DNA from: a virus
Virus record (IMG/VR): IMGVR_UViG_3300033142_000349
Coordinates: 1-35,617 of that record
DNA: 35,617 nucleotides
Strand: one strand, 5' to 3'
Made by a program: the position numbers and the translations under genes. The notes beneath the pieces were generated by a model, which saw only the letters and a list, made by a program, of their open reading frames with translations, made no database searches and was not told where the DNA came from. How positions within the stretch are numbered: the first letter of the stretch is position 1; every line of letters begins with the position of its first letter. Of this stretch, positions 18,906 to 34,370 are shown piece after piece.

Positions 18906-21900
18906 ATGGAAAAATTAATGCAAGAGCTCCAACGTAAAGGTTTGTTTCCAGCAGATGGAACTTTACAAGAGTTTGTTAAGCAATATGGTAATAAAGAAGC
19001 TTTAACAAGTTTACACACTGATTTAGTAAGTAAAGAAATACTAGATGATAGTGTAGCTGATTTTGATTCTTTTGTTACAGGTTTTGAATTATCTGAGGTG
19101 GTAACACCTACTGTTTTAGGTGGTGATGATCCTTTTGAAACTACAGGTTTAGAAGAACCTTCTATTCCTAATACGCCACAGTCTATAGCCTCAGATTTAG
19201 ATCAAGATTTGCAACAGTGGTATCAAGGTGAGTTAGAAAAACTAACCTTACCTAATGGTGCTAAAATACCTCAATACGATGCTGCTTTAAAAAGATTAAA
19301 CGCAGAATTAAATACTAGAAGATTAGATAATGCTAGTGTAAATATGGATAATATTGCACAGCAACAAATAATTCCTTATTTAGGTGGAGAAACGTCAAAC
19401 CCAATTATAGAGATTAGTGATCCCTCAGAAGTTGTGTCTGAGCAAAGAGCTGGTGAAGAATTTGTTTATGGTGGACAATCTCAATTAGAAGATAGATATA
19501 ATAGACAAACCACGGATGCTGAAGCTAAACCTCAAACAGGTATTCATTCGTGGATGTTTACAGAAAGTAATGTTAATTTAAAACCGTATGGAGCACCTAG
19601 TTCTCAAGGCGTAAAAGATACGGAATATAAGCTAGCAAATAAACTATGGACGATTAGTGATGAATTTGATGGAAGCATAGATAAAACACTAGTGCCAGTA
19701 CTTGAAAGACAATACCCTGGTTATGAATTTAAATCAGCAAGAGAAAAAGGCTTAAAAAAAGCAGGTACGCTTAACAATATTCATGGTATTCCTATTGAAG
19801 TCACTGCTCCAAATGGTGAAAAAACTACTATACATGGAGGATTAGATCCTTCTGGAGTAGCTAAAAATGTAGACTTAACAAAAACTATAGAAGAGCAAAA
19901 AGTTAAATTAGCAAACTTCATTAACACTCATGGTATAGACTTAACAAAAGTTAAATCTAGTATTCAAAGTACCGCTCAGAGGTATAATGATCTATTAGCA
20001 AAACCATATAATGAAAAGAAAGTTTCTCTTGGTGGTATAGGATTAGATCTTAACCAACAGGCTACAGCTGATAGTTACGGTATAGGTGAATATATAGAAG
20101 ATGAGAACGGTACAGTAAGTTATAAATTTGAATATAATCCAGCTTTATTTCATGATAATTCATATGAAGATTACTTAGCAACTAATGGTGAAGAATTAAT
20201 TTCAAGAGGAGTAATAACTCAAGACGAATTATCAAACCCTGACAGCGAAGAAACTAAAAGTAAAATTAAAAAAGATATCTTAGTTACTCATGGTGAGTAT
20301 GGTGATGATAGAGAATTACAACTCCCAAACTACGGACCTAAAGCTGCCGGTTACAAAGCAATCATCCATGATATAGATTTTGGAAACAAATATATGGCAT
20401 TTTCAAAAGGTAGTAAGGCTTGGGATAATACGGTTAAAGCTTTAGCCCCTGCTTATAATGCTGCTGGTGTAGATTTAGATGATGAGACGATTAAAACACA
20501 TATTGCTCAAAAAGAACATAATAAGTATGTTAATGGTGCGTTAGACGCTAACTTGAATGAATATTTATGGAAGTCTGACAATGATAACAAAACTCAAGCT
20601 TTATTTTCTGTTGCTGCTATAGTTACTAAAGATGTTAAGTTAAATCAAGCTATGGCTTTACAAGGTCTTAATGAAGCTGCTATAGATAACTATAATAAAC
20701 CTACTCCAGATTTAGCTATAGTAGACATGTTTGAAGAAACTTACAATGATCCTTCAGGTTCTTTCAACATAGAGGGATTAAGTGAAGATAATATAGTAAC
20801 ACTTAGAAATGGTAAACAAGTTTCTAAAAAAGATTTTAATGGGTATGTAGCTGCTAAAAGTAGAAGAAACAACCAAATGACAGCTATGCTAGATCGTAGG
20901 TCTAAAGCTTGGGAGTTACAAGATGAAGTTGGAGATATAGATGCTAATATAAAATTATTAGAAAAAAATTATAACGCTTGGAGTTCATCACTAGCTACTT
21001 TAGGATTAGGTTTTAGTGACATTGGAACTGGATTACTTTATTTAGGAGGTAAAGCAGCTAAATACACACCTGTAGGTGCTGGAGCTACTTTCTGGTTGGG
21101 ACAAGCTGCTAACGCTTTTACTGAAGATGGAAATTTTTTAACAGACTTTTGGGATGAGTGGGACAAAGAATGGGCAGATCAGTACGATGATTATAGTTTT
21201 TGGAAAGAAGGAATTAAAAGCCAATACGGTAAAGAAGTAGGTTTTCATAGAGATAGATTTGGAAGAGGAGGAGCATTTTCTCCTGGAAATTTTGGAAGAT
21301 TCGTAGCACAAGAAACTTCTAAACAAATACCTATTTTAGCTACTATGATTGCTAGTGGTGGAACCGCTGCACCTTGGGTTATTGGTGCTTACTCTGCTGG
21401 TCAACATTGGGCAGATGCAGATAGAAAAGAATACGTAACTGGTAAAGTTGAAAACGAGTTTATACAAGGTATGCAATCAATTGGCTATGGTGCTGCTGAA
21501 GGAATTTTTGAAAGACTTACTACTGTGCCTATATTAAGAAGAGGTGGTAAGCTGGTTCAAGGGTTAGGAGAACCTAGTATGTTAAGCTACAGGAATGCAA
21601 TGAAACAATATTTTAAAGAAAATGGAGCGTTTCTAGTTTCTAGTCCTATTGCTGAATCTGCTGCTGAATTTGGTACTCAAATAACACAAAATGCTATTGA
21701 TGGTAGACCAATCATGGAAAATGTAGATCATGCTGCTTTTGTAGGAGGTATGTTTGGTCATGCCATGAGTATAACACCTTTCATGTCAGGCCTTGCTGCT
21801 AGACAATTTAGTGATTATAATTCTTTTTCAGAATACAAAAATAGGCAACAAGAAATAAACGAGCTTGAACAAGAATTAGTTTATGAAACACAAAGGTTTG

Positions 21901-24900
21901 CAATTCCTCAAGATATAGCTTCTATTAAAATGAAGCAAAAAGTTATTGATGATTTAAAAGTAGAGCAAAAAGCTTTTGTTGAAGAAAAGTTTGCCGCTAT
22001 TCAAAATACAATGACTAATAGTGCTTATAACAACTTTGAAGAAGCTTTGAACGAGCAAGCGGACATTAGTGAGGTTGTTAATGATATGTTATCAGTTGAC
22101 AACACTAATACTAACAATAAATTACTTCAAGTATATAAAGATAGATTTGACAACTTACAATATAAAAGAGATGTATGGAGAAGTGCGGCAAATTTCTCTA
22201 ATCAATTTACATTATTAGAAACATCTAATAAAGAAAGATACGACCGTACGGTTAAGCAAGCTAAAGCACAGTTAGCTAAAGATAACGTAGGAAATGTAAG
22301 AGATGATCAAGTTTTACCATTAGCTGAAGAAATATATGTAGGTGAACTAATAGATGAGAACTTTGAATCAGTCGCTAAAAATAAATCTAAAGGTAAAAGA
22401 TATTTAAAATTCGATACTAACGGAGAAGCTTTAACGTATATAGAGGATGTTCTCGCGACCTCTAAGGAGAAAATAAATGCTAAGAAGGATTTAACAGACG
22501 AACAAAAAAAGTCTCGTATAGTTAATCTAGAACGACAGATAAGAGATGTTAAGGATAACGTCAACAAGAAGGAAACTAAAGGTGCGATAACTAGTTTGTT
22601 AGAAGGTAGATTAAGTGGTTGGAATATGACGTTTGATGCTGATGGTATATTAACAACTGATCCAGCGGCTATAAAAAGAAGTGAAGTTTTAGGTTTTAGA
22701 GAAAATGCGATAAGAAACAATGAGACTCAAATATTCACGCATGAAGCAGGTCATGATATTTTTGGAGAATTATTAGGTTATGACTCTAAAGAGTTTAAAC
22801 CTTTAGCTGATGAGATAATATCTTACATGTCAAAGACTAATCCTATGTTATTAAAAGGATTAGCTTTAAAAAGAGGTAGAGAGTTACAGAAGTCAGATGA
22901 AGTAGTAATGAATTTTTTAGAACTTGTTGGACAAAAGAAAATAAACATTGAAGATAAACAAGGTGGATTACTTTCTTCTTCTTTTGGTTTTATAACTAAT
23001 AATATTTTTAAAAACAACAACAAACCCACTATGGAGTTTAATGGACAAAATGGTGCTATTAAATTTCTACATGAATTAGGAACTGCAGTGTCTGAAGGTA
23101 GAGTTACTCCAGAAATGGTAGCTAAATGGAAGAGAGAGGGTGTTATACAAGGAGCTAAAAAGAAATATCAAAAAGCTCAACGTCAATATAAAAAGTTGAT
23201 TGAAGAATCAGCCATAGCATTATTAGATGAAAATATAGATAATTATAAATTTTCCGATACTAAAGATGTTGAAGACGCAAATCAAATCATGAAAGATTTA
23301 TTAGCTTTAGTTGCGGACAATAAAGTTACTCCAGTAAAAAACTATGAAGCTAAGAAAGCAGCATTAACAGCTAAGTATCAAAAACTTAAAAGTGAATCTT
23401 CAGTTGTGGAAACAGTTCCAATATTTGAAGGTAGTATAAGAGATGAATCTGACGCAGCAAGAAAAGAAAGAGTTAATTTAATAGAAAGATCTTTCAGAGG
23501 TAGATTAGAAACTGCACAAGGTGGTAGACCTATGGGGGAAATTCTTAGAGCTTATGAAGGGAAAATTGAAGCACTGTTTAAAAAAGGTGGATACTATGCT
23601 ACAGATTCTTATCAGAGATTTCAAGATATTTCAGAAGCGTTGGAAGAGTTTACTGCTATAACAAATGTAGAACTAATGAAATCTATTCGTGCATTTAAAC
23701 CAGATGTAAATAAAGATTTTGATGCTTACATAATGAGTCCTAAGATCTTGCCTAATAAAGTTAAGTTAGCTAATAAAATTATAGGTAGAGAATCTAAAAA
23801 TGAAGGATTTGACACTGGATTAGAAGCTGCTAGTGGAGTAGCGGTAAGTGAAGATACTACTTTAGAAGAATTTGAAACAACATTAAGAGAAGTATTAGGT
23901 GTAAAGAAAGGTGATCCAATGTATGAAGCAGCTATGACGGCTGTTCAAGATGTAATGCAAAAAGGTTTACCTAAGTTTGAATACACACAAAGAAAGAAAA
24001 GCGGTGGAGGAGAAACTGTAACTCTCGCACAGGTTAGAAAAACATTAAGTACTAATCCCACTGGTGAAGCTAAAAGACAAGCAGAAAGAGATTTAGCTGG
24101 GATAATGAAAAAGGTTAAATCAGAGCTAGAAGCTAGTTATCAACAAGCTTTAGATAAGACCATTAAACAAGAATTTTTAAAAGCCAAAGTGTATGATTCT
24201 TTTTTAAAAGAACATCGTACTGAGTTATTAAAACGTTTACCTATTGAAGATCTAGTAGCTCTAGAAAGATTAGTAAAGCCAGAAAGTAAGATATTTACTA
24301 GTGTCAGAGTGATGGATAAACAAACTGGTAGAACTGTTTTAAATCCTACTGAAGTTAAACAGTATGAAGGATCTGGAAATTTAACTACAGCAACTACTAC
24401 TCAAGGTCCTACTTTATACAATAGAAAAAACCCAAGTGAAAAACAATTTGTAGATTTCTTTAACGTTAGAGGAAGAAAAAATGCTTTAGCTAAAATACTT
24501 AGTAATGTTTTAGGATTAGATGCTACTATGCAAAATATAACTAGTGAAAAGGTTGTTAATGAAGTAGCTGAAGGAAATCCTCAAATTAAAGAACAATTAG
24601 GTGAACAAGCTTTAAAAGATTTTGCGTTATCTATAGGAAGAGGTACTGCTTTTAAATTTTCAATGGCCGAGTCTGTAGGCATGGAAGGTAGATTAGCAGA
24701 AGACTATAATAAGTTGCAACCAAATATTTTAGATCTTATAATTGACATGAATGTGTCTGATCCCATGTCAGTTAATTTAGCGGTAGATGTAGTATTATCT
24801 GAAGGCAAGTATGCTCCATATAGAAGTGCAATTAAAAAGAATTTAAAAAGATTTTTAAGACCTTACGCTAAAGCCGTTGACTCACCGGGTGAAATTCAAA

Positions 24901-27900
24901 TAGATATTAATGAGTACATAACTAGAGAACTTGATAGAACTGAAGATGAAAGTATTCAGAGAATGTGGAATTCAAAACCAATGGCGCAAGCTTTTGCTAA
25001 TCCAACCGATGTTGTACTTCAAAGAGAGTTTGACAATAGGACTATTCAACAAGAACTTTTAAATAAAGCAGGTTATGATAGTAAAGGTAATCAAAATCCA
25101 GTTACAGAGCAAATTAAAATAGACCAAGCTGCTTTAGAGGTAAGATATATGGCTAGGATTCAATCTGGTGTAGAAGTAGTTTCAAAGAAAGCAAGGAACA
25201 TGCTTTACCAAAATATTAGTTCGTTTAAAGCTGATTTCTTAAAATCTAATTTTGGATTCAAAGATTATAACACTTTCAACGTAAAAGATAAAAACGGAAA
25301 ATCTACTAGATATCTAGAGTTTATAAGAGAAGATGGATCACGTACTAAACCAGTGGTTTTTCCTACAAGTCCTTCTCAAAAAGTAGAACTTAATATGATA
25401 GATGGTTCTATGACTCAAGCAGAAGTAGATTTTAGAGAAAAAATGGCTGATGAAGCGTGGAACTTTGTTGTTAATAAATATAAAGCCGCAAAAGAAGTAG
25501 TAGAAAATGACAGTGCTGATGAGTTAAATATAGCAATGTTAATGGCTGGTATGGGTAGTATGATGAAAGGGCCAATTAGAGCAGCTGCTCCTTTTAGATA
25601 TCGACCTGTTGACGCGCCATTTACAACTTTAAAAGATTCTGATGGAAATAAAAATTTCGAATACGAACATGGTATACCAGCTAAAATAGTTAACTTGCTA
25701 ATTGCTGATGCAGTATTCAATCCTGACAGTGATGTTAATCTACAAAAACTAAAAGATTCATATGCGATAGGTGCTATTCCTGTAGATATGAACGAAAACT
25801 TTAGCACGTTTTTTGGAGATAGAATGCAAGACACTTATAAGGTTGGTGACATTGCACCTACAAGATGGTACAATGAATACACTAGAGGTAGAGCTGCTTA
25901 CGCTGTAGAAGATGTTAGAACTAAAGAAAGGTTTGGAGAGAAAGAAGCTCAGTTGTGGAAAGAAGAACAGCAAGCTGCTAATGTTAATAAATTTTCTTTA
26001 TCTAATGATGTAGTTGATATGGACGGGTTAAAACCAGATGAGATATTAAATTACGCAGCAACTATAGATAAGGCTTTACAAATAGCAAGAGATCCTAACG
26101 CCCCTGTCAAGAAGATTAGAGTATTTGATTTTGATGATACACTAGCCACAACAAAAAGTAATGTACTATATACTATGCCTGATGGTACCACTGGTAAATT
26201 AACTGCTGAAGAGTTTGCTAAAAAAGGAGATGAGATGGTAGCTCAAGGAGTTAAGTGGGATTTCTCAGAGTTTAATAAAGTAATGCAAGGTGGTAAAGGA
26301 CCTTTACTTGGAGTTGCTAAATTAATTCAACAAGCGAGAGGAACTAAAGACGTATTCGTGCTCACTGCTAGATCTCAAGAAGCCGCGCCAGCTATTAAAG
26401 AATTTTTAGATAGCGTTGGTTTAAAAATTCCTTTGAAAAATATTACAGGATTAGGTAATAGTTCTCCTTTCGCTAAATCTAGATGGGTTATAGAAAAAGC
26501 TGCAGATGGCTATAATGATTTCTATTTTGCTGATGATCATATGGGTAATGTTAAAGCTGTAGAAGATGCATTGTCAGTTATAGACGTTAAGTCAAAAGTA
26601 CAGCAAGCTAAATTCAAATTTAGTGAAAGTGTTGATAGAGATTTTAACATTATTCTAGAACATTCGCTTGGCATAGAATGGTTCAAAGACTATAGCAAAG
26701 CTAAGGGAGAAATGTTAGGGAAGCAGAATCAAAAAAGAAAAATACATCCTTATTCTGCAGAAGATTTTGAAGGGTTGATATATCCCTTACTAGGAAAAGG
26801 CAAAAGGGGAGATTCCAATTATAAGTGGTTTGAAGAACATTTATTTAAACCATTCTCAAGAGCAATGACTGATCTAGATTCTGCTAGAATAAACTTAATG
26901 GATGATTTTAGAGCTTTAAAGAAAACATTAATCGCTCCTAAAACAATTAAAAAAATAAACTCTACAGGATTTACTAACGAAAATAGTATTAGAGTTTTTG
27001 TTTGGGATAAATTAGGTAAAACTATACCTGGTTTAAGTAAAATTGATTTAGCTGAAATAAATAAAGAAATAGAAAATAATCCTGAATTAAAATTATTTGC
27101 TGAAGAATTAATTAAAATAAACAAAGGTGAGTATAAAGAACCTGGTAAACATTGGCTAGCAGGGACAATCACTACAGATCTTTACGAAGGATTAAATACT
27201 ATAAAGAGAGCAGAATATTTAAAACAATGGAAAGAAAACGTTGACATTATATTTTCTGATAAAAACTTAAACAAACTAGAATCTAAGTTTGGTCCTAAAT
27301 ACATTGAAGCTTTAAAAAATTCTTTGAGAAGAATGGAATCTGGTTCTAACAGATCATTTAGTAATAATAGACTTACTAATCAAGTGTTAGACTATTTAAA
27401 CAATGCTCAAGGAGTTGTAATGTTTTTGAACATGAGATCAGCTTTATTACAAGGTATATCAAATGTCAATTTCTTGAATTGGTCTTTTAATAATCCTCTT
27501 AAAGCTGGTGTTGCTTTTGGTAATATGCCACAATACTCTAAAGATTTTATAGAGTTAATGAACTCTGATTATTTAGTTAACAGAAGGGGTGGATTATCAA
27601 TGGATATACACGCAGATGAGGTTGCTAATAGTGCTAAGACTTCTAAAAATAAAGCTAAAGCAATAATTAGTTATATAATAGAAAAAGGATACACTCCAAC
27701 TAAGTTTATGGATAGTTTCGCTATAGCTTCAGGTGGTGCTACTTTTTATAGAAATAGAATAAACGATTTAGTTAAAAAAGGATTAAGCGAGGAAGAAGCA
27801 AGAGCTCAAGCTTACGAGGAGTTTGTAGAAATATCAGAAAAAAATCAGCAATCATCTAGACCAGATAAAATATCTTCTCAACAAGCTAGTACTTTAGGAA

Positions 27901-28661
27901 GATTAACATTAAACTGGGCTAATACTCAAATGCAGTATGTGAGAATACAAAAGAAAGCAATTCAAGATATAGCTAATAACAGAGGAGATTTTAAAACAAA
28001 TGTTAGTAGAATAGTTTATTATGGAGTTGTACAAAACTTATGGTTTCAAATGGCTCACTCAGCTATGTTTGCATTAGCATTTGGAGAAGATGATGATGAT
28101 CCTACTTTTAAAGAAGATAAGATAGAAAGAACTGCAAATGGAGCTGCTGATAATATTCTAAGAGGATTAGGAATTGGAGGGCATGTATTTTCTGTACTTA
28201 AAAATATGGGTATAAAAATATATAAAGAATCAGAAAAAGATCGACCGCGATATGCAGATCAGTTATGGGAATTATTTAAGTTGTCTCCAGTTATAAGTTC
28301 TAAAGTTAATAGACTTAAGCAAGCAGCTTGGCAATTCGATTCTAAAAAGAGGAGACAAGAAATGATTGATAAAGGATTTGCTTTAGATAATCCCGCTTAT
28401 GAAGCAGGCGCTAAAGTAGTAAGCGCTGTAACAAATATACCTGTAGATAGATTGTTAATTAAGATGCAAAATATAGGAGATGCATTGTCAGAAGAAACAG
28501 ATGCGTGGATGGATATAGCTTTATTACTAGGTTGGCCAAGATGGACTTTAGAAGCAAAGAAAAAAGAAACTTCAAAATGGGGACCTACAAAAGATAAAAA
28601 GAAAGATAGTTGGGGACCTAGTGGATATAAAAAAGAAAAATCATGGGGTCCACAAAAGTAG
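18906..28661 (+). CDS. Giant polyvalent-type internal virion protein with protease and HAD domains
   Basis: A 3,251-residue protein, nearly a quarter of the window. N-terminal short helical domain (1-70), then about 600 uncharacterised residues. Hydrophobic segments lie near residues 693-738, 808-833 and 943-965 and could cross or disturb a membrane. Residues 1279-1283 are HEAGH, the zinc-metalloprotease HExxH motif, in the context IFTHEAGHDIFGELLGYD. A complete HAD hydrolase motif set follows: DFDDT at 2408-2412, Thr2487, Lys2524 and the acidic pair Asp2543-Asp2544, indicating phosphatase activity. A helical C-terminal region leads to a Lys-rich tail with three WGP repeats. This layout matches the large polyvalent proteins of phages, which are thought to be injected with DNA. 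Ejection is inference; no lysozyme motif was recognised. Confidence 0.7.
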   Translation: MEKLMQELQRKGLFPADGTLQEFVKQYGNKEALTSLHTDLVSKEILDDSVADFDSFVTGFELSEVVTPTVLGGDDPFETTGLEEPSIPNTPQSIASDLDQDLQQWYQGELEKLTLPNGAKIPQYDAALKRLNAELNTRRLDNASVNMDNIAQQQIIPYLGGETSNPIIEISDPSEVVSEQRAGEEFVYGGQSQLEDRYNRQTTDAEAKPQTGIHSWMFTESNVNLKPYGAPSSQGVKDTEYKLANKLWTISDEFDGSIDKTLVPVLERQYPGYEFKSAREKGLKKAGTLNNIHGIPIEVTAPNGEKTTIHGGLDPSGVAKNVDLTKTIEEQKVKLANFINTHGIDLTKVKSSIQSTAQRYNDLLAKPYNEKKVSLGGIGLDLNQQATADSYGIGEYIEDENGTVSYKFEYNPALFHDNSYEDYLATNGEELISRGVITQDELSNPDSEETKSKIKKDILVTHGEYGDDRELQLPNYGPKAAGYKAIIHDIDFGNKYMAFSKGSKAWDNTVKALAPAYNAAGVDLDDETIKTHIAQKEHNKYVNGALDANLNEYLWKSDNDNKTQALFSVAAIVTKDVKLNQAMALQGLNEAAIDNYNKPTPDLAIVDMFEETYNDPSGSFNIEGLSEDNIVTLRNGKQVSKKDFNGYVAAKSRRNNQMTAMLDRRSKAWELQDEVGDIDANIKLLEKNYNAWSSSLATLGLGFSDIGTGLLYLGGKAAKYTPVGAGATFWLGQAANAFTEDGNFLTDFWDEWDKEWADQYDDYSFWKEGIKSQYGKEVGFHRDRFGRGGAFSPGNFGRFVAQETSKQIPILATMIASGGTAAPWVIGAYSAGQHWADADRKEYVTGKVENEFIQGMQSIGYGAAEGIFERLTTVPILRRGGKLVQGLGEPSMLSYRNAMKQYFKENGAFLVSSPIAESAAEFGTQITQNAIDGRPIMENVDHAAFVGGMFGHAMSITPFMSGLAARQFSDYNSFSEYKNRQQEINELEQELVYETQRFAIPQDIASIKMKQKVIDDLKVEQKAFVEEKFAAIQNTMTNSAYNNFEEALNEQADISEVVNDMLSVDNTNTNNKLLQVYKDRFDNLQYKRDVWRSAANFSNQFTLLETSNKERYDRTVKQAKAQLAKDNVGNVRDDQVLPLAEEIYVGELIDENFESVAKNKSKGKRYLKFDTNGEALTYIEDVLATSKEKINAKKDLTDEQKKSRIVNLERQIRDVKDNVNKKETKGAITSLLEGRLSGWNMTFDADGILTTDPAAIKRSEVLGFRENAIRNNETQIFTHEAGHDIFGELLGYDSKEFKPLADEIISYMSKTNPMLLKGLALKRGRELQKSDEVVMNFLELVGQKKINIEDKQGGLLSSSFGFITNNIFKNNNKPTMEFNGQNGAIKFLHELGTAVSEGRVTPEMVAKWKREGVIQGAKKKYQKAQRQYKKLIEESAIALLDENIDNYKFSDTKDVEDANQIMKDLLALVADNKVTPVKNYEAKKAALTAKYQKLKSESSVVETVPIFEGSIRDESDAARKERVNLIERSFRGRLETAQGGRPMGEILRAYEGKIEALFKKGGYYATDSYQRFQDISEALEEFTAITNVELMKSIRAFKPDVNKDFDAYIMSPKILPNKVKLANKIIGRESKNEGFDTGLEAASGVAVSEDTTLEEFETTLREVLGVKKGDPMYEAAMTAVQDVMQKGLPKFEYTQRKKSGGGETVTLAQVRKTLSTNPTGEAKRQAERDLAGIMKKVKSELEASYQQALDKTIKQEFLKAKVYDSFLKEHRTELLKRLPIEDLVALERLVKPESKIFTSVRVMDKQTGRTVLNPTEVKQYEGSGNLTTATTTQGPTLYNRKNPSEKQFVDFFNVRGRKNALAKILSNVLGLDATMQNITSEKVVNEVAEGNPQIKEQLGEQALKDFALSIGRGTAFKFSMAESVGMEGRLAEDYNKLQPNILDLIIDMNVSDPMSVNLAVDVVLSEGKYAPYRSAIKKNLKRFLRPYAKAVDSPGEIQIDINEYITRELDRTEDESIQRMWNSKPMAQAFANPTDVVLQREFDNRTIQQELLNKAGYDSKGNQNPVTEQIKIDQAALEVRYMARIQSGVEVVSKKARNMLYQNISSFKADFLKSNFGFKDYNTFNVKDKNGKSTRYLEFIREDGSRTKPVVFPTSPSQKVELNMIDGSMTQAEVDFREKMADEAWNFVVNKYKAAKEVVENDSADELNIAMLMAGMGSMMKGPIRAAAPFRYRPVDAPFTTLKDSDGNKNFEYEHGIPAKIVNLLIADAVFNPDSDVNLQKLKDSYAIGAIPVDMNENFSTFFGDRMQDTYKVGDIAPTRWYNEYTRGRAAYAVEDVRTKERFGEKEAQLWKEEQQAANVNKFSLSNDVVDMDGLKPDEILNYAATIDKALQIARDPNAPVKKIRVFDFDDTLATTKSNVLYTMPDGTTGKLTAEEFAKKGDEMVAQGVKWDFSEFNKVMQGGKGPLLGVAKLIQQARGTKDVFVLTARSQEAAPAIKEFLDSVGLKIPLKNITGLGNSSPFAKSRWVIEKAADGYNDFYFADDHMGNVKAVEDALSVIDVKSKVQQAKFKFSESVDRDFNIILEHSLGIEWFKDYSKAKGEMLGKQNQKRKIHPYSAEDFEGLIYPLLGKGKRGDSNYKWFEEHLFKPFSRAMTDLDSARINLMDDFRALKKTLIAPKTIKKINSTGFTNENSIRVFVWDKLGKTIPGLSKIDLAEINKEIENNPELKLFAEELIKINKGEYKEPGKHWLAGTITTDLYEGLNTIKRAEYLKQWKENVDIIFSDKNLNKLESKFGPKYIEALKNSLRRMESGSNRSFSNNRLTNQVLDYLNNAQGVVMFLNMRSALLQGISNVNFLNWSFNNPLKAGVAFGNMPQYSKDFIELMNSDYLVNRRGGLSMDIHADEVANSAKTSKNKAKAIISYIIEKGYTPTKFMDSFAIASGGATFYRNRINDLVKKGLSEEEARAQAYEEFVEISEKNQQSSRPDKISSQQASTLGRLTLNWANTQMQYVRIQKKAIQDIANNRGDFKTNVSRIVYYGVVQNLWFQMAHSAMFALAFGEDDDDPTFKEDKIERTANGAADNILRGLGIGGHVFSVLKNMGIKIYKESEKDRPRYADQLWELFKLSPVISSKVNRLKQAAWQFDSKKRRQEMIDKGFALDNPAYEAGAKVVSAVTNIPVDRLLIKMQNIGDALSEETDAWMDIALLLGWPRWTLEAKKKETSKWGPTKDKKKDSWGPSGYKKEKSWGPQK
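22722..22766 (+). other. HExxH zinc-protease motif in giant protein
   Basis: Encodes IFTHEAGHDIFGELL. His1279 and His1283 would bind zinc and Glu1280 would act as general base. The residues after the motif match the helical continuation seen in zincins. The third ligand is not certain. Confidence 0.65.
26112..26600 (+). other. HAD-family phosphatase domain in giant protein
   Basis: All four HAD motifs are present in order with normal spacing: KIRVFDFDDTLA (motif I, nucleophile Asp2408 and acid Asp2410), VFVLTARS (motif II, Thr2487), Lys2524 in SPFAKSRW (motif III) and FYFADDHMGN (motif IV, Asp2543/Asp2544). It therefore looks catalytically competent. Confidence 0.8.
28559..28661 (+). repeat. 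WGP tandem tail repeats of giant protein
   Basis: The last 34 residues hold three units of the form Ser-(Lys)-Trp-Gly-Pro separated by Lys-rich linkers (SKWGPTKDKKK, DSWGPSGYKKEK, SWGPQK). The last unit overlaps the start of the next gene. Confidence 0.7.
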
Positions 28662-29305
28662 CATTAGTAACACCAACTAGAGGAGATAGACCTTTATTCA
28701 AGGATCAGTATTGGAATATAATAAAAAATCAAACTAGAAAACCTGATGAAGTTATAGTTGTAGATTATCCTCCTGTTAGTGATAAAAAAGATTTGTCAGC
28801 TAGATATAAAAAAGGTATTAAAGAAGCGGAGGAGAAAGGCTGTAATGTAGTTTTATTATGGGAAGATGATGATTGGTATCACCCGCAATATATTGAATGG
28901 ATCTTAGATCAGTGGGAAAAAAATAAACAACCAGATATATTAGGTGTAGAAGAAACATATTATTATCATATAAAAGTAAATAAATTTAAACATTTAGTAC
29001 ATGGTGGTAGGTCTTCTGCATTTTGCTGTTTACTAAAACTACCTTATAAATATAGTTATCCTCATGATGAAAACATTTGGTTTGATTTACACCTATTTAA
29101 GAATCATGCTAAGAAACATTTGAAAGTTAAAACAATTAAATTTGATGATAAAGTATATGCTATAGGTATAAAACATGGTACAGGTGTGACAGGAGGAGTA
29201 GGACATAAAATAAAGTTTCCTTGGGATAAAAAAGATGGTTTACAATGGTTAAATCAAAACTGTAGTGATAATGAGATTTATCAACAAATTGCTAAACAAA
29301 TATAA
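28643..29305 (+). CDS. Glycosyltransferase, GT2-like (GT-A fold)
   Basis: A 220-residue sugar transferase using a nucleotide-sugar donor. The N-terminus VALVTPTRGDRPLF followed by QTRKPDEVIVVDYPP is the GT2 start (first strand and donor pocket). Residues 74-77 (EDDD in LLWEDDDWYHPQYIEW) are the metal-binding DxD motif. The end part holds GIKHGTGVTGGVGHK. The start codon lies 19 bases inside the giant protein gene, indicating tight coupling. The acceptor is unknown: a glycan on the virion or the host surface are the options, and two more such enzymes sit on the opposite strand. Length is short for the family, so it is the catalytic domain alone. Confidence 0.8.
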   Translation: MGSTKVALVTPTRGDRPLFKDQYWNIIKNQTRKPDEVIVVDYPPVSDKKDLSARYKKGIKEAEEKGCNVVLLWEDDDWYHPQYIEWILDQWEKNKQPDILGVEETYYYHIKVNKFKHLVHGGRSSAFCCLLKLPYKYSYPHDENIWFDLHLFKNHAKKHLKVKTIKFDDKVYAIGIKHGTGVTGGVGHKIKFPWDKKDGLQWLNQNCSDNEIYQQIAKQI

Positions 29306-29419
29306 ATGAAAAAGAAATGTTGGAAAGGCTATGTGGCTAAAGGTAAAAAGAAATCACCTAGTGGAAAGAAGGTTAATGGTAAAATAAAAATGGTTAACAA
29401 CTGCGTAAAGAAAAAGTAA
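29306..29419 (+). CDS. Small Lys/Cys peptide
   Basis: A 37-residue frame starting on the base after the glycosyltransferase stop and ending in TAATG, where its stop shares one base with the next start. The product (MKKKCWKGYVAKGKKK, then SPSGKKVNGKIKMVNNCVKKK) is 43 percent Lys, with two Cys residues framing the body. The exact abutment at both ends makes it a real coupled gene. From memory, similar Cys-Trp-Lys-Gly-Tyr peptides occur in marine phages. Function unknown; a DNA- or virion-associated basic peptide is a guess. Confidence 0.7.
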   Translation: MKKKCWKGYVAKGKKKSPSGKKVNGKIKMVNNCVKKK

Positions 29420-29694
29420 TGGCTAAAAAAAGTGTTAATGCTAGATATGAAAAGCGTAATAAAAAAATGCGTTCAGATCATAAAAAAGAAACAGGTAAGA
29501 CGTTAGGTAAAAGACAAACATCTGGTACGGGTAGTAGAAGAGTTTCTTTTGCTTGTCGATTTGCAGGTATGTCAGGTGGAATGACTAAACCTAATGGAGA
29601 GCCTACTAATTTAAGAATGGCTTTGAAAAAATGGGGATTTAGTAGTAAAGGTGAGGCTAGAAAGTTTTGTAATAAACATAAAAAGAAAAAATGA
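29419..29694 (+). CDS. Small basic protein, DUF6321-like (putative)
   Basis: A 91-residue protein with about one-third Lys plus Arg and no hydrophobic segment. The body GTGSRRVSFACRFAGMSGGM, followed by NLRMALKKWGFSSKG, resembles small basic proteins (DUF6321 type) common in marine phages, where 'RR-SF--R--GM' precedes 'AL-KW'; this is from memory. Strong positive charge suggests nucleic-acid or virion packing. It overlaps the peptide gene before it by one base (TAATG) and the gene after it by four (ATGA), so the set is translationally coupled. A basic Lys tail (KHKKKK) ends the protein. Confidence 0.7.
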   Translation: MAKKSVNARYEKRNKKMRSDHKKETGKTLGKRQTSGTGSRRVSFACRFAGMSGGMTKPNGEPTNLRMALKKWGFSSKGEARKFCNKHKKKK

Positions 29695-30548
29695 AATATT
29701 TATTAACTTTAATATTTACGTTTTTAATATTGATAGGATATTCTCAATGTGATAATGGTACAAACTATTATCCATCGTTCATCTATACACCGGTAGAAGA
29801 CGCTTGGGATTATGCTTCATCTTGTAATTGGGCTGGAGAAGTTATACAACTTAATGTAAAAGCAGGAGATACATATGAGTTTTCTACATGTGATCAATAT
29901 GGATTTGAGCAAGCTAGTTATGATACACAAATAACATTATTAGATGGATTAGGTAATTTGTTAGATTTTAATGACGACTATGGTGGATGTGCAGGGTATA
30001 CATCTTATCTTAGATGGGTTGCTCCTTATAGTGGTACAGTTTATTTACATTTAAACGAGTACTATTGTTTGACTAACTTTACATGTACTACAGTTATGAT
30101 ATACCGTACACCTTCATTTGCTTTACCTATAGAGTTAATATCATTTACTGGTGAAATATTAGGAGGAGATATACATCCTGTAGTAATGATTAATTGGGAG
30201 GTTGCTTCTCAAGTTAATAATGATTACTATGAAGTACAGAGAAGTATAGATGTTGAAACTTGGAATACAATAAACACTGTGACAGGAGCCGGTAATAGTA
30301 ACACCCAAATGTCATACTCTATTTTAGATGATAATCCACTGCATGGAGTTTCTTATTATCGTCTGAAACAAACCGATTATGACGGACAGACCGAATCGTT
30401 TAATCCTATATCAATTATAATCAGTTCAGAAGAAAAGATCATAGATAAAGTTGTAAATTTTATGGGACAAGAAGTAAATGAAAACTATAAAGGAATGGTA
30501 TTAGAAATATACCGTGACGGAACTTATGTAAAGAAAAATTATGAATAA
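29691..30548 (+). CDS. Secreted protein with PPC-like domain and type IX secretion-like C-terminus
   Basis: A 285-residue exported protein. Residues 1-19 are a signal peptide (MKYLLTLIFTFLILIGYSQ) of flavobacterial type. Residues about 40-138 resemble a PPC domain (WAGEVIQLNVKAGDTYEFST, ASYDTQITLLDG, FNDDYGGC). Residues about 145-245 match the beta-sandwich (LPIELISFTGE; NNDYYEVQRS; GVSYYRLKQTDYDGQ) found before the sorting domain in many secreted flavobacterial proteins. The end (VVNFMGQEVNENYKG, then YRDGTYVKKN) looks like the type A sorting signal of the type IX secretion system. It is probably host-derived and would be displayed on or released from the infected cell. It is the last gene of the late operon, overlapping the preceding gene by ATGA. 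Exact role unknown. Confidence 0.8.
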   Translation: MKYLLTLIFTFLILIGYSQCDNGTNYYPSFIYTPVEDAWDYASSCNWAGEVIQLNVKAGDTYEFSTCDQYGFEQASYDTQITLLDGLGNLLDFNDDYGGCAGYTSYLRWVAPYSGTVYLHLNEYYCLTNFTCTTVMIYRTPSFALPIELISFTGEILGGDIHPVVMINWEVASQVNNDYYEVQRSIDVETWNTINTVTGAGNSNTQMSYSILDDNPLHGVSYYRLKQTDYDGQTESFNPISIIISSEEKIIDKVVNFMGQEVNENYKGMVLEIYRDGTYVKKNYE

Positions 30549-30592: not shown

Positions 30593-30625
30593 AAAAAGGG
30601 GATCTCAATACGAGGTCCCCTTTTT
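30593..30625. terminator. Bidirectional terminator between convergent operons
   Basis: The 14-bp stem AAAAAGGGGATCTC (30593-30606) pairs with GAGGTCCCCTTTTT (30612-30625), with a single G-T wobble and the loop AATAC. A-run and T-run on either side give U-tracts in both directions. It sits between the stop at 30548 (plus) and the stop at 30643 (minus). Confidence 0.93.
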
Positions 30626-30642: not shown

Positions 30643-31170
30643 TTATTTATCTTCACCAATCTTTCTTAGTTTATAAATACCATTGTGAGTAGTTATATTT
30701 TCTTCATTTATATTAACAAAACTAGGATATTCACTAAACAGATATTTTGATTTTAAATTAAATAAAGATTTTATATTTTCTTGAACTTTATTAGGATCTG
30801 TTATTAATTCTTCATATTTAACTGTTAAATCTATATAATTTTTATATTTAAAAGCTTGATTCATACAGGCATCATATCTACTTTCATTCACATAATTATT
30901 ATCGGAGAGTAGAACATCTTCTTTATTTCTTACCATATTAACTATATGAATATTTTTTAATAAAGGTAGTTGTTTTTCTATTTCTTGTTCATTTAATATA
31001 GTGGAAAACATTGTTTTAATAGTTCTTTTACCTACATTAAAATCACTTTTTAGAAAATTTATTAATTTTATTTCATCTTTATTATATACTTTTAAATCAA
31101 ACGCGTTGAATAATCTTCTTAATAATGTTGTACCTGTTTTAGCACAACCTGTTATGTATATTTTTTTCAT
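30643..31170 (-). CDS. Sulfotransferase-family protein
   Basis: A 175-residue enzyme that would transfer a sulfate group from PAPS to an acceptor. Residues 8-15 (GCAKTGTT in KKIYITGCAKTGTTLLRRLF) form the 5'-phosphosulfate loop. Residues 78-92 (NMVRNKEDVLLSDNN) match the 3'-phosphate motif, with Arg81 and Ser89. Shorter than typical carbohydrate sulfotransferases (250-350 residues), so it is a compact version. Its start follows the stop of the glycosyltransferase before it without a gap. The natural substrate is probably the glycan made by its neighbours, but this is inference. A kinase-like P-loop is less likely because the motif lacks the GK[ST] core. Confidence 0.75.
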   Translation of the reverse strand: MKKIYITGCAKTGTTLLRRLFNAFDLKVYNKDEIKLINFLKSDFNVGKRTIKTMFSTILNEQEIEKQLPLLKNIHIVNMVRNKEDVLLSDNNYVNESRYDACMNQAFKYKNYIDLTVKYEELITDPNKVQENIKSLFNLKSKYLFSEYPSFVNINEENITTHNGIYKLRKIGEDK

Positions 31171-31833
31171 TTATATAGTATTTAATCCCATTCCGAAGTG
31201 GTTTCTTGTTCCTCTTTTTATCGTAGAAATGTATTTTTTTATATTATCTATTTTAATTAATTCTTCATCAGGAGTATTTAACATAAAATTTAAACAAGGA
31301 GCTCCATGTAATTCAAAATTATATAAGCTTTTATTATATTTATATTTATCTATAACCATCATGGAGGGATGAATATATTTATAACCTTTATTAACATTTA
31401 TACCTTTAGAATTAACATCTATTTTTAATCCTGCAGCTGTAAAGTTTTTTGTTGATAAATAATTTATTATATAATCTAAAGAATTTTTTTCTAACCAACA
31501 GTCAGAGTCTATTATTAACACATATTTAGATCTTATTATTCTGCTTAAAGCTATATGCATTCCTGGACCATGATGTACATTATATCCAAAATTATAGTGG
31601 TTTATGTTATTAGCATTAATTAATTCTTTTTTTAGTTTATTATTTGTTTCTACTATTATATCTCCTCTTTCTATTAATCTATAATCGCTACCGTCTATAA
31701 TATTTATTTCTATATTTTTATCTTCATTTCTAACACTATTGATTAAATTAAAAATAAAATCTGGTGTATTATAGTTAACAGTTAAAATAGATAAATTATT
31801 TCTACTTATTGGCTCATGTTTATTTAAGATCAT
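31171..31833 (-). CDS. Glycosyltransferase family 2
   Basis: A 220-residue GT2-type enzyme. I place the start at 31833 because AAGGAGAAAGA lies just upstream of that ATG; the longer reading from 31869 overlaps the upstream gene by 50 bases, against 14 here. The N-terminus LSILTVNYNTPDFIFNLINS is the classical GT2 start. DSD at residues 109-111 (YVLIIDSDCWLE) is the metal-binding motif. A possible acceptor region is HGAPCLNFML. It lies between another GT2 gene and the sulfotransferase, forming a three-gene glycan-modification unit. Confidence 0.85.
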   Translation of the reverse strand: MILNKHEPISRNNLSILTVNYNTPDFIFNLINSVRNEDKNIEINIIDGSDYRLIERGDIIVETNNKLKKELINANNINHYNFGYNVHHGPGMHIALSRIIRSKYVLIIDSDCWLEKNSLDYIINYLSTKNFTAAGLKIDVNSKGINVNKGYKYIHPSMMVIDKYKYNKSLYNFELHGAPCLNFMLNTPDEELIKIDNIKKYISTIKRGTRNHFGMGLNTI

Positions 31834-32509
31834 TTCTTTCTCCTTTTCCGGCGAGTGGAACTTTAACAAATGGTTCTACTATACAAACTTTATTTGGTAT
31901 TTTATTATGTAATTTACTTATTACTCTAAAGTCTGAACATTTCCATTTATCCCATATCGCAAAGTCTTTATATTTAGAATGAAATATTAAACAGCTTCCT
32001 CCTATACGTGCTAATTGTGGGGTCCATTTTTCTGATCCAAAAGGAAATAATACTTTTCTGTTTTTAATTTCACTAGGAATTTTAATATTTTTACTACCCC
32101 ATTCCATTTGAAAATAAATTAAAGTATCTTCATTATATTTATTTACATGTGTAACTAATTTACTTAAAGAATGTTGATCCACAAAGTAATCATCATCATC
32201 TATATATATTATCCACCCTTCTTTTATTTCTTTATGTACTTCATTAAAGTATAAATTATGAGCAGATAATCTTCCTGTTTTTGGATCTTTAGTTTTATCG
32301 TTTTTAACTAGAGAAATAGGATCATATATATAATATTCTTCTATTCCATTGTTTTTTATATAAGACACATTATCTTTACTATCAGTAATTATAACATGTC
32401 TTATATTTTTATAAGTTTGATTATTGATAGAATTAACATTTCTTTTAAAAAATTCAGGTCTTCCGGAAGTACGAGTTATAACGTTTATTAACGGGTTTTT
32501 ATTTGACAT
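31820..32509 (-). CDS. Glycosyltransferase family 2
   Basis: A 229-residue sugar transferase. Start of fold: PLINVITRTSGRPEFFKRNV, the GT2 pattern with substrate-pocket Arg/Ser. Catalytic centre: residues 104-107 are four Asp in WIIYIDDDDYFVD, covering the DxD motif. The middle stretch (LARIGGSCLIFHSKY) fits the acceptor-side loop. The end is basic (KGERNDLK). The ATG lies two bases beyond the reductase stop and its 3' end overlaps the next GT2 gene by 14 bases, so the two are co-expressed. Acceptor unknown: surface polysaccharide, teichoic-like polymer or capsid glycan are possible. Confidence 0.85.
   Translation of the reverse strand: MSNKNPLINVITRTSGRPEFFKRNVNSINNQTYKNIRHVIITDSKDNVSYIKNNGIEEYYIYDPISLVKNDKTKDPKTGRLSAHNLYFNEVHKEIKEGWIIYIDDDDYFVDQHSLSKLVTHVNKYNEDTLIYFQMEWGSKNIKIPSEIKNRKVLFPFGSEKWTPQLARIGGSCLIFHSKYKDFAIWDKWKCSDFRVISKLHNKIPNKVCIVEPFVKVPLAGKGERNDLK
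31834..31848 (-). promoter_or_regulatory. Shine-Dalgarno deciding the GT2 start
   Basis: On the minus strand AAGGAGAAAGA precedes the ATG at 31833-31831. It lies within the last codons of the upstream glycosyltransferase gene. It is one of the rare strong sites in this window. Confidence 0.6.
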
Positions 32510-32511
32510 AT

Positions 32512-32730
32512 TTATTTTATTTCACAAGCTCCACCAGCACAAGCTAGTTCACCTGATAAGTCCGTGTTATCTTCTGTTTCTGTTATGTTTGATAGATCAA
32601 CTTGTTTTAATGATTGCATTAACTCTTGATACTTACGACACGTTATATCCTCAAAAGGAGCTTGAGTATAAGTTCCACCATTAAATGGTAATACAGATAA
32701 ACCATTATAATGTTCTCTGTTTTCCCACAT
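32512..32730 (-). CDS. nrdJ: Class II ribonucleotide reductase, C-terminal piece
   Basis: This frame continues the reductase after the frameshift: WMWENREHYNGLSVLPFNGG, then TYTQAPFEDITCRKYQELMQ, which is the family's usual end region. The protein closes with CAGGACEIK, the Cys-x4-Cys pair (Cys611 and Cys616 in the joined protein) that carries reducing power to the active site in cobalamin-dependent ribonucleoside-triphosphate reductase. The reading frame is open up to about 32749, so the ATG at 32730 is an internal Met. Without this piece the enzyme could not be re-reduced, so either the frames are joined or the enzyme is dead. Confidence 0.8.
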   Translation of the reverse strand: MWENREHYNGLSVLPFNGGTYTQAPFEDITCRKYQELMQSLKQVDLSNITETEDNTDLSGELACAGGACEIK

Positions 32731-34370
32731 CCATTCACCAGCATCGCCCCTTCTGGTTTCAAACTTACTGTTGCTGAAACATTGTGAGTATTAGATCCTT
32801 TTCTATGACCAGGTGTGACCCACTCTGTGGCAACCTTTTTTATACGTTCAAGTAACTGAAATGGTGACTCAGTCCTAAGTATAGATCCTTCAGGTGCTTT
32901 TTGTGGTATACTTATCACAGCAGTATCATGAGGTCGGAAATACTCATCTTCAATTAGCTCAGGATGATGTTCAGCTAAGTATTTATACATTGATTCGTTC
33001 TTCCCAACTCTGACCCTACGTATGTAATAATCATTATGCCATGCATGAATACCCGATGAAGTTCCTAATGCCAGAGATGTCGTCCCTGCAGGCTTCACGG
33101 TTGTACATCTTGCAGCTTTATTAATCCCAATCAGCTTCGCGACTCTTGTGTTTTCTCTTTTTACTACTTGGGCGGCTTTCTCCATGTCGTATCCTAACAC
33201 CGTGCCACTCCCGATCCCCGTCATGCTCACCCCAATCAGCGCGTCTTTTTCGGTTGTCTCTTGCCATATTTCTCTTAAATAGTGAAAGTCTGTATAGCCA
33301 GCTTGTAATGTTCCAATGAACGCAGCAGCTTTCACTCTGTTGTTTAAATCTTCTTGTGATTCAATATCACTAGCATTTACTTCACATAAGTTACAAAACT
33401 GATATGGTCGTAAAGCTATTTCACAACAAGGATTAGTTCCCCAATCTTTGTCATTGTTGAAGTATATACCTGGTTCACCAGCTCCAGACAATTCCACACG
33501 TTTCCAGAGTTTCATAAAATATTCTTTAGTAATTTTATGTCTCATTAAAACCGCAGAGTTATTAGCTCTACCTCTTTGTGGATTAGTTTCCCACCAATCA
33601 CCAGACTTACATGCTATCATTTCATTGTCATCAGCAGAGAATAAAGATATCAAAGCTGCTCTTCTAATACCACCTGCTAAGACAGCGTCTGCTATATGGC
33701 AAACAATATCATGAACTTCTACAGTTGTCAACTGATCTCCATCTTCTTTTGATTGTAATATTCCTTTAAGCTTTACTAAACATTCTTTTAAAGGTTGTGG
33801 GCCAGGAGCTTTACCTCCTGACGTCACTAGCTGAGCACCTTTAGGTCTTATGTCTGAGTAATCGAAACTAATTCTTGACGATCTTCGATCACCCATATAA
33901 GACTTCATTAGCACTTTAATTGCATCAGCCCAACCTTCAATTGAATCACCAATAAGAAATCTTCTCCTACGTTTTTCATAAGGTTTATTTATAGGAGGTA
34001 ATTTGTTTACATGGTGGTTCTGAACAGAATACCCTACTCCTGTTCCTCCAAGAAGCAAAAACATTACTTCGTGGAAAGAATCTACATGGTCAATAGGGAG
34101 ATAAGCGCAGTTATATACTCTATTAGGAGATATCTCAATCGGCTTGCCGCCGAATTGTAAACTCCGCATGCTTGGTAAAACCTTCTTTTCATATACTAAT
34201 TTATAAACATCATTTATTTGATCCGCTAATTGCGGATATGTTTTAATATGCATTGCTTTATTTCGATCTACTAATTCTTCCCAGGTTTCCCTACGTTTTT
34301 CATTAGGTAGATATTTCGCATATTTCATGTACACTGTAATATTAGATAAGATTTCACTTGCTAATTCCAT
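32643..34370 (-). CDS. nrdJ: Adenosylcobalamin-dependent (class II) ribonucleotide reductase, main piece
   Basis: Makes deoxyribonucleotides from ribonucleotides for phage DNA replication, using a radical generated from vitamin B12 coenzyme, so no separate radical subunit is needed. Active-site residues by family comparison: Cys88 (YNCAYLPID), the thiyl-radical Cys315 (NPCCEIAL) and Cys326 (FCNLCEVN). The 11-residue spacing between the last two equals that in the Lactobacillus monomeric enzyme (Cys408/Cys419). Other landmarks are GTGVGYSVQ, KPAGTTSLALG and the GHRKGSNTHNVSATV region. After KPEG the frame goes wrong. Joining the pieces by restoring one G gives about 619 residues. The start overlaps the upstream gene by 17 bases. 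Confidence 0.9.
   Translation of the reverse strand: MELASEILSNITVYMKYAKYLPNEKRRETWEELVDRNKAMHIKTYPQLADQINDVYKLVYEKKVLPSMRSLQFGGKPIEISPNRVYNCAYLPIDHVDSFHEVMFLLLGGTGVGYSVQNHHVNKLPPINKPYEKRRRRFLIGDSIEGWADAIKVLMKSYMGDRRSSRISFDYSDIRPKGAQLVTSGGKAPGPQPLKECLVKLKGILQSKEDGDQLTTVEVHDIVCHIADAVLAGGIRRAALISLFSADDNEMIACKSGDWWETNPQRGRANNSAVLMRHKITKEYFMKLWKRVELSGAGEPGIYFNNDKDWGTNPCCEIALRPYQFCNLCEVNASDIESQEDLNNRVKAAAFIGTLQAGYTDFHYLREIWQETTEKDALIGVSMTGIGSGTVLGYDMEKAAQVVKRENTRVAKLIGINKAARCTTVKPAGTTSLALGTSSGIHAWHNDYYIRRVRVGKNESMYKYLAEHHPELIEDEYFRPHDTAVISIPQKAPEGSILRTESPFQLLERIKKVATEWVTPGHRKGSNTHNVSATVSLKPEGAMLVNGCGKTENIIMVYLYYHLMVELILKLLLRI

Follow-up and report, generated by a model that had tools for sequence, protein, structure and literature searches.

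The question raised by this locus is whether the last gene of a phage late operon encodes a cargo protein for the type IX secretion system (T9SS) of the host. The window, that is, the whole stretch of DNA analyzed here, is the 35,617-base viral record IMGVR_UViG_3300033142_000349. It encodes a crAss-like TerL (phrog_6681; E value of 1e-157), a portal protein (E value of 1.7e-142), and a crAss muzzle protein (PF25731; E value of 3.6e-14), and together these genes identify the phage as crAss-like by the criteria for Crassvirales. The gene of interest is the final gene of the plus-strand late operon, and the genes further on are on the opposite strand. A previous reading of the sequence alone had placed the gene in an operon with virion genes and coupled it to its neighbor by an ATGA overlap, and both points agree with our analysis. 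This end of the operon is laid out as follows.

18906-28661, plus strand: giant late ORF of 3251 amino acids, the conserved left neighbor of the cargo gene slot, from synteny
28643-29305, plus strand: glycosyltransferase-like ORF of 220 amino acids (Glycos_transf_2 E value of 3e-4, under the curated cutoff)
29419-29694, plus strand: ORF of 91 amino acids with a DUF6321 match (PF19846; Pfam E value of 2.5e-7)
29691-30548, plus strand: cargo-like gene of 285 amino acids, whose ATG overlaps the TGA of ORF 29419-29694
30593-30625, plus strand: strong intrinsic terminator at the end of the late operon, with a 14-pair stem, 6 GC pairs, and a T-rich tail

Several features of the neighboring genes are worth recording. 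The C-terminal third of the giant ORF aligns with relatives, mostly at 28 to 57% identity and at 97% in L002, and the ORF contains a VFDFDDTLA...FADD stretch that has the look of a HAD phosphatase. Between the cargo gene and the ribonucleotide reductase gene, a sulfotransferase-like ORF and two glycosyltransferase-like ORFs are found on the minus strand (30643-32509). Their GC content is very low (0.21 to 0.25 versus 0.325), a tblastn comparison with the loci of syntenic relatives returned no match for them, and the region looks like a variable cassette for changing surface glycans. The reductase ORF itself (32512-34370, minus strand) shows a frame change near residue 540 compared with its relatives, while L002 reads through; the expected reductase C terminus is located in another frame, as ORF 32512-32730, and the change is either a sequencing error or a real frameshift.

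The 285-residue protein can be divided into four parts, all encoded on the plus strand.

29691-29744, plus strand: Sec-type signal peptide, residues 1 to 18, with the cut assumed to be near YSQ (sequence; helix at residues 2 to 17 in the model)
29745-30119, plus strand: PPC-fold beta domain, residues 19 to 143 (alignment, model, and Foldseek)
30120-30413, plus strand: flavobacterial pre-sorting beta-sandwich, LPIELISF ... YYRLKQTDYDG, residues 144 to 241 (alignment and bacterial relatives)
30429-30545, plus strand: short tail of about 38 residues, 247 to 285 (alignment, model, and bacterial C-terminal matches)

The first three parts had been named in the sequence-only reading, and all three are upheld. 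The signal sequence, MKYLLTLIFTFLILIGYSQ, has a positively charged start and a hydrophobic core, as judged from the sequence; the model places a helix over it, and similar hydrophobic N termini are found in almost every viral relative whose 5' end is complete. A lipoprotein reading was rejected, as Gln precedes the Cys and this Cys is missing in L014 and L018, which have another architecture. The PPC-fold domain contains four Cys residues that are invariant in the alignment, and when modeled alone, it gave a pLDDT of 86 and a pTM of 0.83. The top PDB matches of this domain in a Foldseek search were the collagen-binding and pre-peptidase C-terminal domains of collagenase (3jqw and 5sv5), with E values of about 1e-3 and TM scores of 0.50 to 0.60; with these as the best structures, the label "PPC-like" is right, despite the fact that nothing passes when the Pfam PPC model is compared with the window protein. 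The beta-sandwich follows the general module pattern "LPIxLxSF...YYRLxQxDxDG," which normally precedes a T9SS sorting domain, and its bacterial relatives show up to 54% identity. The model of the full-length protein had a pLDDT of 81.4 and a pTM of 0.48, and a Foldseek search with the whole protein returned only generic multidomain beta-sandwich matches with poor superposition.

The remaining part, a proposed sorting-domain-like end, held only to some extent: a distinct C-terminal tail is present, but it is not a canonical sorting domain. The tail forms three strands in the full-length model (residues 251 to 256, 268 to 274, and 279 to 284), a Gly in the first loop and the terminal Lys are invariant in the tail alignment, and the 80- to 100-residue, seven-strand Ig-like CTD of type A cargo is absent from the window protein. 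The profile search with type IX sorting families that had been proposed as a check turned out negative, as TIGR04183, TIGR04131, type C, PF18962, and PF13585 gave no match to the window protein even at E values of up to 5. This covers the type B (TIGR04131/PF13585) and type C signal models, and none of the Pfam and NCBIfam sorting-domain models matched the window protein. Furthermore, no significant similarity between the tail and type A domains was found when their profiles were compared with hhalign (probability of 3.9%), and hence, we claim no homology between the two. These results fit a protein that stays in the periplasm, with a role in, for example, lysis or envelope modification and with the tail serving as a folding hairpin of the beta-sandwich: no sorting model matches, the tail is short with no detectable homology to type A, and in L018, the cargo gene abuts an endolysin gene. 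On the terms of the sequence-only reading, failure of the window protein in the sorting-profile test would refute the idea, and its relatives were therefore examined.

A first scan identified 20 viral relatives. About a dozen of these share the location seen in the window, with the giant late ORF on one side of the cargo gene and the ribonucleotide reductase block on the other, and some relatives have an extra middle domain. L014 and L018 have a CUB domain in place of the PPC domain (E value of 1.9e-9), while L016, with PPC domain and module retained, ends in PF18962 (E value of 1.4e-9). The idea that PPC and CUB proteins form a paralogue pair within one genome was dismissed, as each crAss-like record has one copy and the two domains are alternatives instead. 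A scan with an alignment of the module extended the set to 66 viral loci, 52 with the short tail and 14 with a type A domain as recognized by the bacterial type A profile. After removal of near duplicates, 53 distinct viral proteins were left, of which 44 end in the short tail and 9 in type A, with none having both and none having neither; the scan patterns lie in the module, but relatives were confirmed with the window sequence, tail included, so these counts may favor short-tailed relatives. Such a bias leaves the lack of a third class of ending unexplained. The tail and type A profiles behind these counts came solely from bacterial sequences, and 0 of 990 shuffled ends matched in a control. 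Both endings start at the same junction after the module, where short-tailed viral relatives have 37 to 48 residues, and both are found inside one and the same N-terminal architecture (20 short tails and 3 type A domains in one architecture and 8 and 4 in another). As a separate observation, phage records LR745206.1 and LR756504.1 (634 and 636 kb) encode module proteins plus canonical Por_Secre_tail (PF18962) proteins, which indicates several T9SS-cargo-like gene copies per phage.

Bacterial proteins give a similar picture. PF18962 (Por_Secre_tail) follows the module in 48 of the 51 bacterial module proteins whose end is intact; these were picked by patterns close to the phage module. The short tail is limited to one lineage: within the order containing Crocinitomicaceae (genome G003), its profile matches 88 of 199 genomes, and in a phylum-wide sample outside that order, it matches 2 of 297. 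SprA is encoded in 196 of the 199 genomes and in 230 of the 297, and because nearly all genomes of the order have it, co-occurrence of the tail with SprA is uninformative. Among the best matches fetched, the bacterial tail lies 0 to 6 residues before the stop. The module is found 7 to 15 residues upstream of the tail in 23 of 36 bacterial ORFs; the other 13 lack the sandwich and include PHB depolymerases, esterases, endonuclease I, an M14 peptidase, and an arylsulfotransferase. None of 34 bacterial short-tail proteins was matched by the sorting models. In bacterial loci L107 to L141, we noticed many secreted enzymes with this tail at the C terminus that are missed as T9SS cargo by current models.

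Its C-terminal position in enzymes and module proteins alike marks the tail as a bacterial C-terminal feature that replaces the type A domain. Taken together with the exchange seen in viral proteins, this bacterial usage makes it probable that the tail acts as a minimal T9SS signal. A tail that alternates exactly with type A domains and is also attached to proteins without the sandwich is difficult to reconcile with a folding hairpin, and we therefore regard a purely periplasmic protein as unlikely.

The gene is under purifying selection, with dN/dS values of 0.09 to 0.13 compared with the three closest relatives and 0.29 compared with one more distant relative, and hence, 29691-30548 is not a chance ORF. 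Its GC content is 0.314, compared with 0.325 for the window, and its GC3 is like that of phage genes. The bacterial origin of the domains and a GC content near the window value could be taken to suggest a host gene captured in transit, or a chimeric contig, of no use to the phage. This is already contradicted by about a dozen relatives, assembled independently, in which the gene occupies the corresponding position, by the dN/dS and GC3 values, and by the single copy per record in the crAss-like lineage, and we consider it very improbable.

The gene is missing from five close relatives that share its flanking genes; in these, the slot either is empty or contains other small genes. All 26 TerL neighbors considered lack the module, but most of them are fragments, and the comparison was restricted to the five in which the flanking genes are present. 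Conversely, the cargo family is also present in phages without this TerL, namely, L005, L019, and the two huge phages. The gene therefore behaves as an accessory gene that is exchanged among phages of related hosts. This bears on a further explanation, in which the protein is a virion component, either a decoration or a tail adhesin, with host-like domains that bind cells. Its late-operon location, immediately behind the virion genes, would suit such a function; virions can be decorated with Ig-like, PPC, and CUB domains, and some structural neighbors in BFVD are tail proteins. Virion decoration is nevertheless less likely, because the gene is accessory, a signal peptide is present, and unrelated phages carry the family. 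The four invariant Cys residues and a C terminus that follows the pattern of bacterial secreted enzymes also speak against it, and we give this explanation only a small chance of being correct.

The proposal of a T9SS-cargo-like phage gene in a late operon is thus well supported by the relatives and by the clean exchange between tail and type A domain, but it is not supported by the profile test on the protein itself, and the export route is indirect reasoning. With architecture, conservation, exchange of endings, bacterial use of the tail, and accessory status established, we think it likely, though well short of certain, that a crAss-like phage uses 29691-30548, an accessory late gene, to make host-derived T9SS-style cargo, with the tail as a minimal sorting signal and the product as a surface adhesin or shield. 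We infer T9SS export, the surface location, and the biological role of the protein along the following lines. The Sec signal peptide would direct the protein to the periplasm, where the four conserved cysteines can form disulfides. The tail is predicted to form a sheet of three strands, with a GQEV loop and lysines at the end, and the host T9SS would read it instead of the usual type A domain of 80 to 90 residues; transport through SprA would be followed by release or anchoring on the cell surface late in infection. The variable N-terminal binding domain (PPC here and CUB elsewhere) would most likely act as an adhesin or shield; the surface protein may block or mask receptors against superinfection, or it may protect or aggregate infected cells. 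From the interchangeable binding domains, our guess is a role as an adhesin, receptor mask, or shield.

In a broader form, the proposal would be that a minimal T9SS signal of about 38 residues, which all current models miss, is common to the Crocinitomicaceae-containing order and its phages, and that the phages display interchangeable binding domains on the surface of infected cells by means of it, using the tail more commonly than the full type A domain; we consider this only somewhat more probable than the opposite. If true, several phage lineages that are unrelated to each other cause infected cells to present proteins of the phage's choosing via the host type IX machinery, and this change of the cell surface late in infection is open to testing. 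As a natural T9SS signal of very small size, the tail would help to define which features SprA and PorV recognize, and many unannotated secreted proteins would be added in marine Flavobacteriales. It would also suggest that this crAss-like lineage infects members of the Crocinitomicaceae-containing order.

Among known systems, the closest architecture is that of T9SS type A cargo (TIGR04183/PF18962), which likewise combines a signal peptide, beta domains, a flavobacterial module, and a C-terminal sorting region. The window tail, however, is 38 residues long, compared with 80 to 100 for the type A domain, and has three predicted strands instead of seven, with no PNP strand and no profile match. 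The last 22 CTD residues of HBP35 are enough for secretion of GFP (PMC10202324). Short CTDs of 40 to 55 residues with three predicted strands, which are cleaved and glycosylated, have been described only for Prevotella intermedia; according to the authors, no other species has been reported to combine long and short CTDs (PMC11969387). By this published description, they resemble the window tail in length and in forming one three-stranded sheet (PMC11969387). In both cases, short and long signals are present together in one organism. The sequence motifs agree in part, with a Gly in the first loop, a Gly before strand 2, and basic residues in the last strand of both, but the GxY of P. intermedia motif D is mostly GxV in the tail family, with GxY in L292, L294, and L299. 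The window tail differs in that the PT/GI cleavage motif is not recognized and in its occurrence in Flavobacteriales and phages.

Cargo of this kind in a phage had been called unusual in the sequence-only reading. It is uncommon, but it was reported before, in 2019-2020: Cryophage carries a T9SS cargo protein described as a unique occurrence (PMC7468147), and crAss-like cluster 2 encodes T9SS sorting-domain proteins with BACON domains near head genes (PMC6949934). As in our case, these are Bacteroidota phages whose proteins combine T9SS sorting ends with variable binding or enzyme domains and a possible function in superinfection exclusion. Those reports concern annotated sorting domains, whereas the ending described here is mostly an uncatalogued short tail, which is joined to PPC, CUB, and other N-terminal domains and is found in crAss-like as well as unrelated large phages. 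Judging from the open-access literature, three points appear to be new, namely, the uncatalogued short tail, the way in which it trades places exactly with the type A domain in both phages and bacteria, and the occurrence of the family in several phage lineages.
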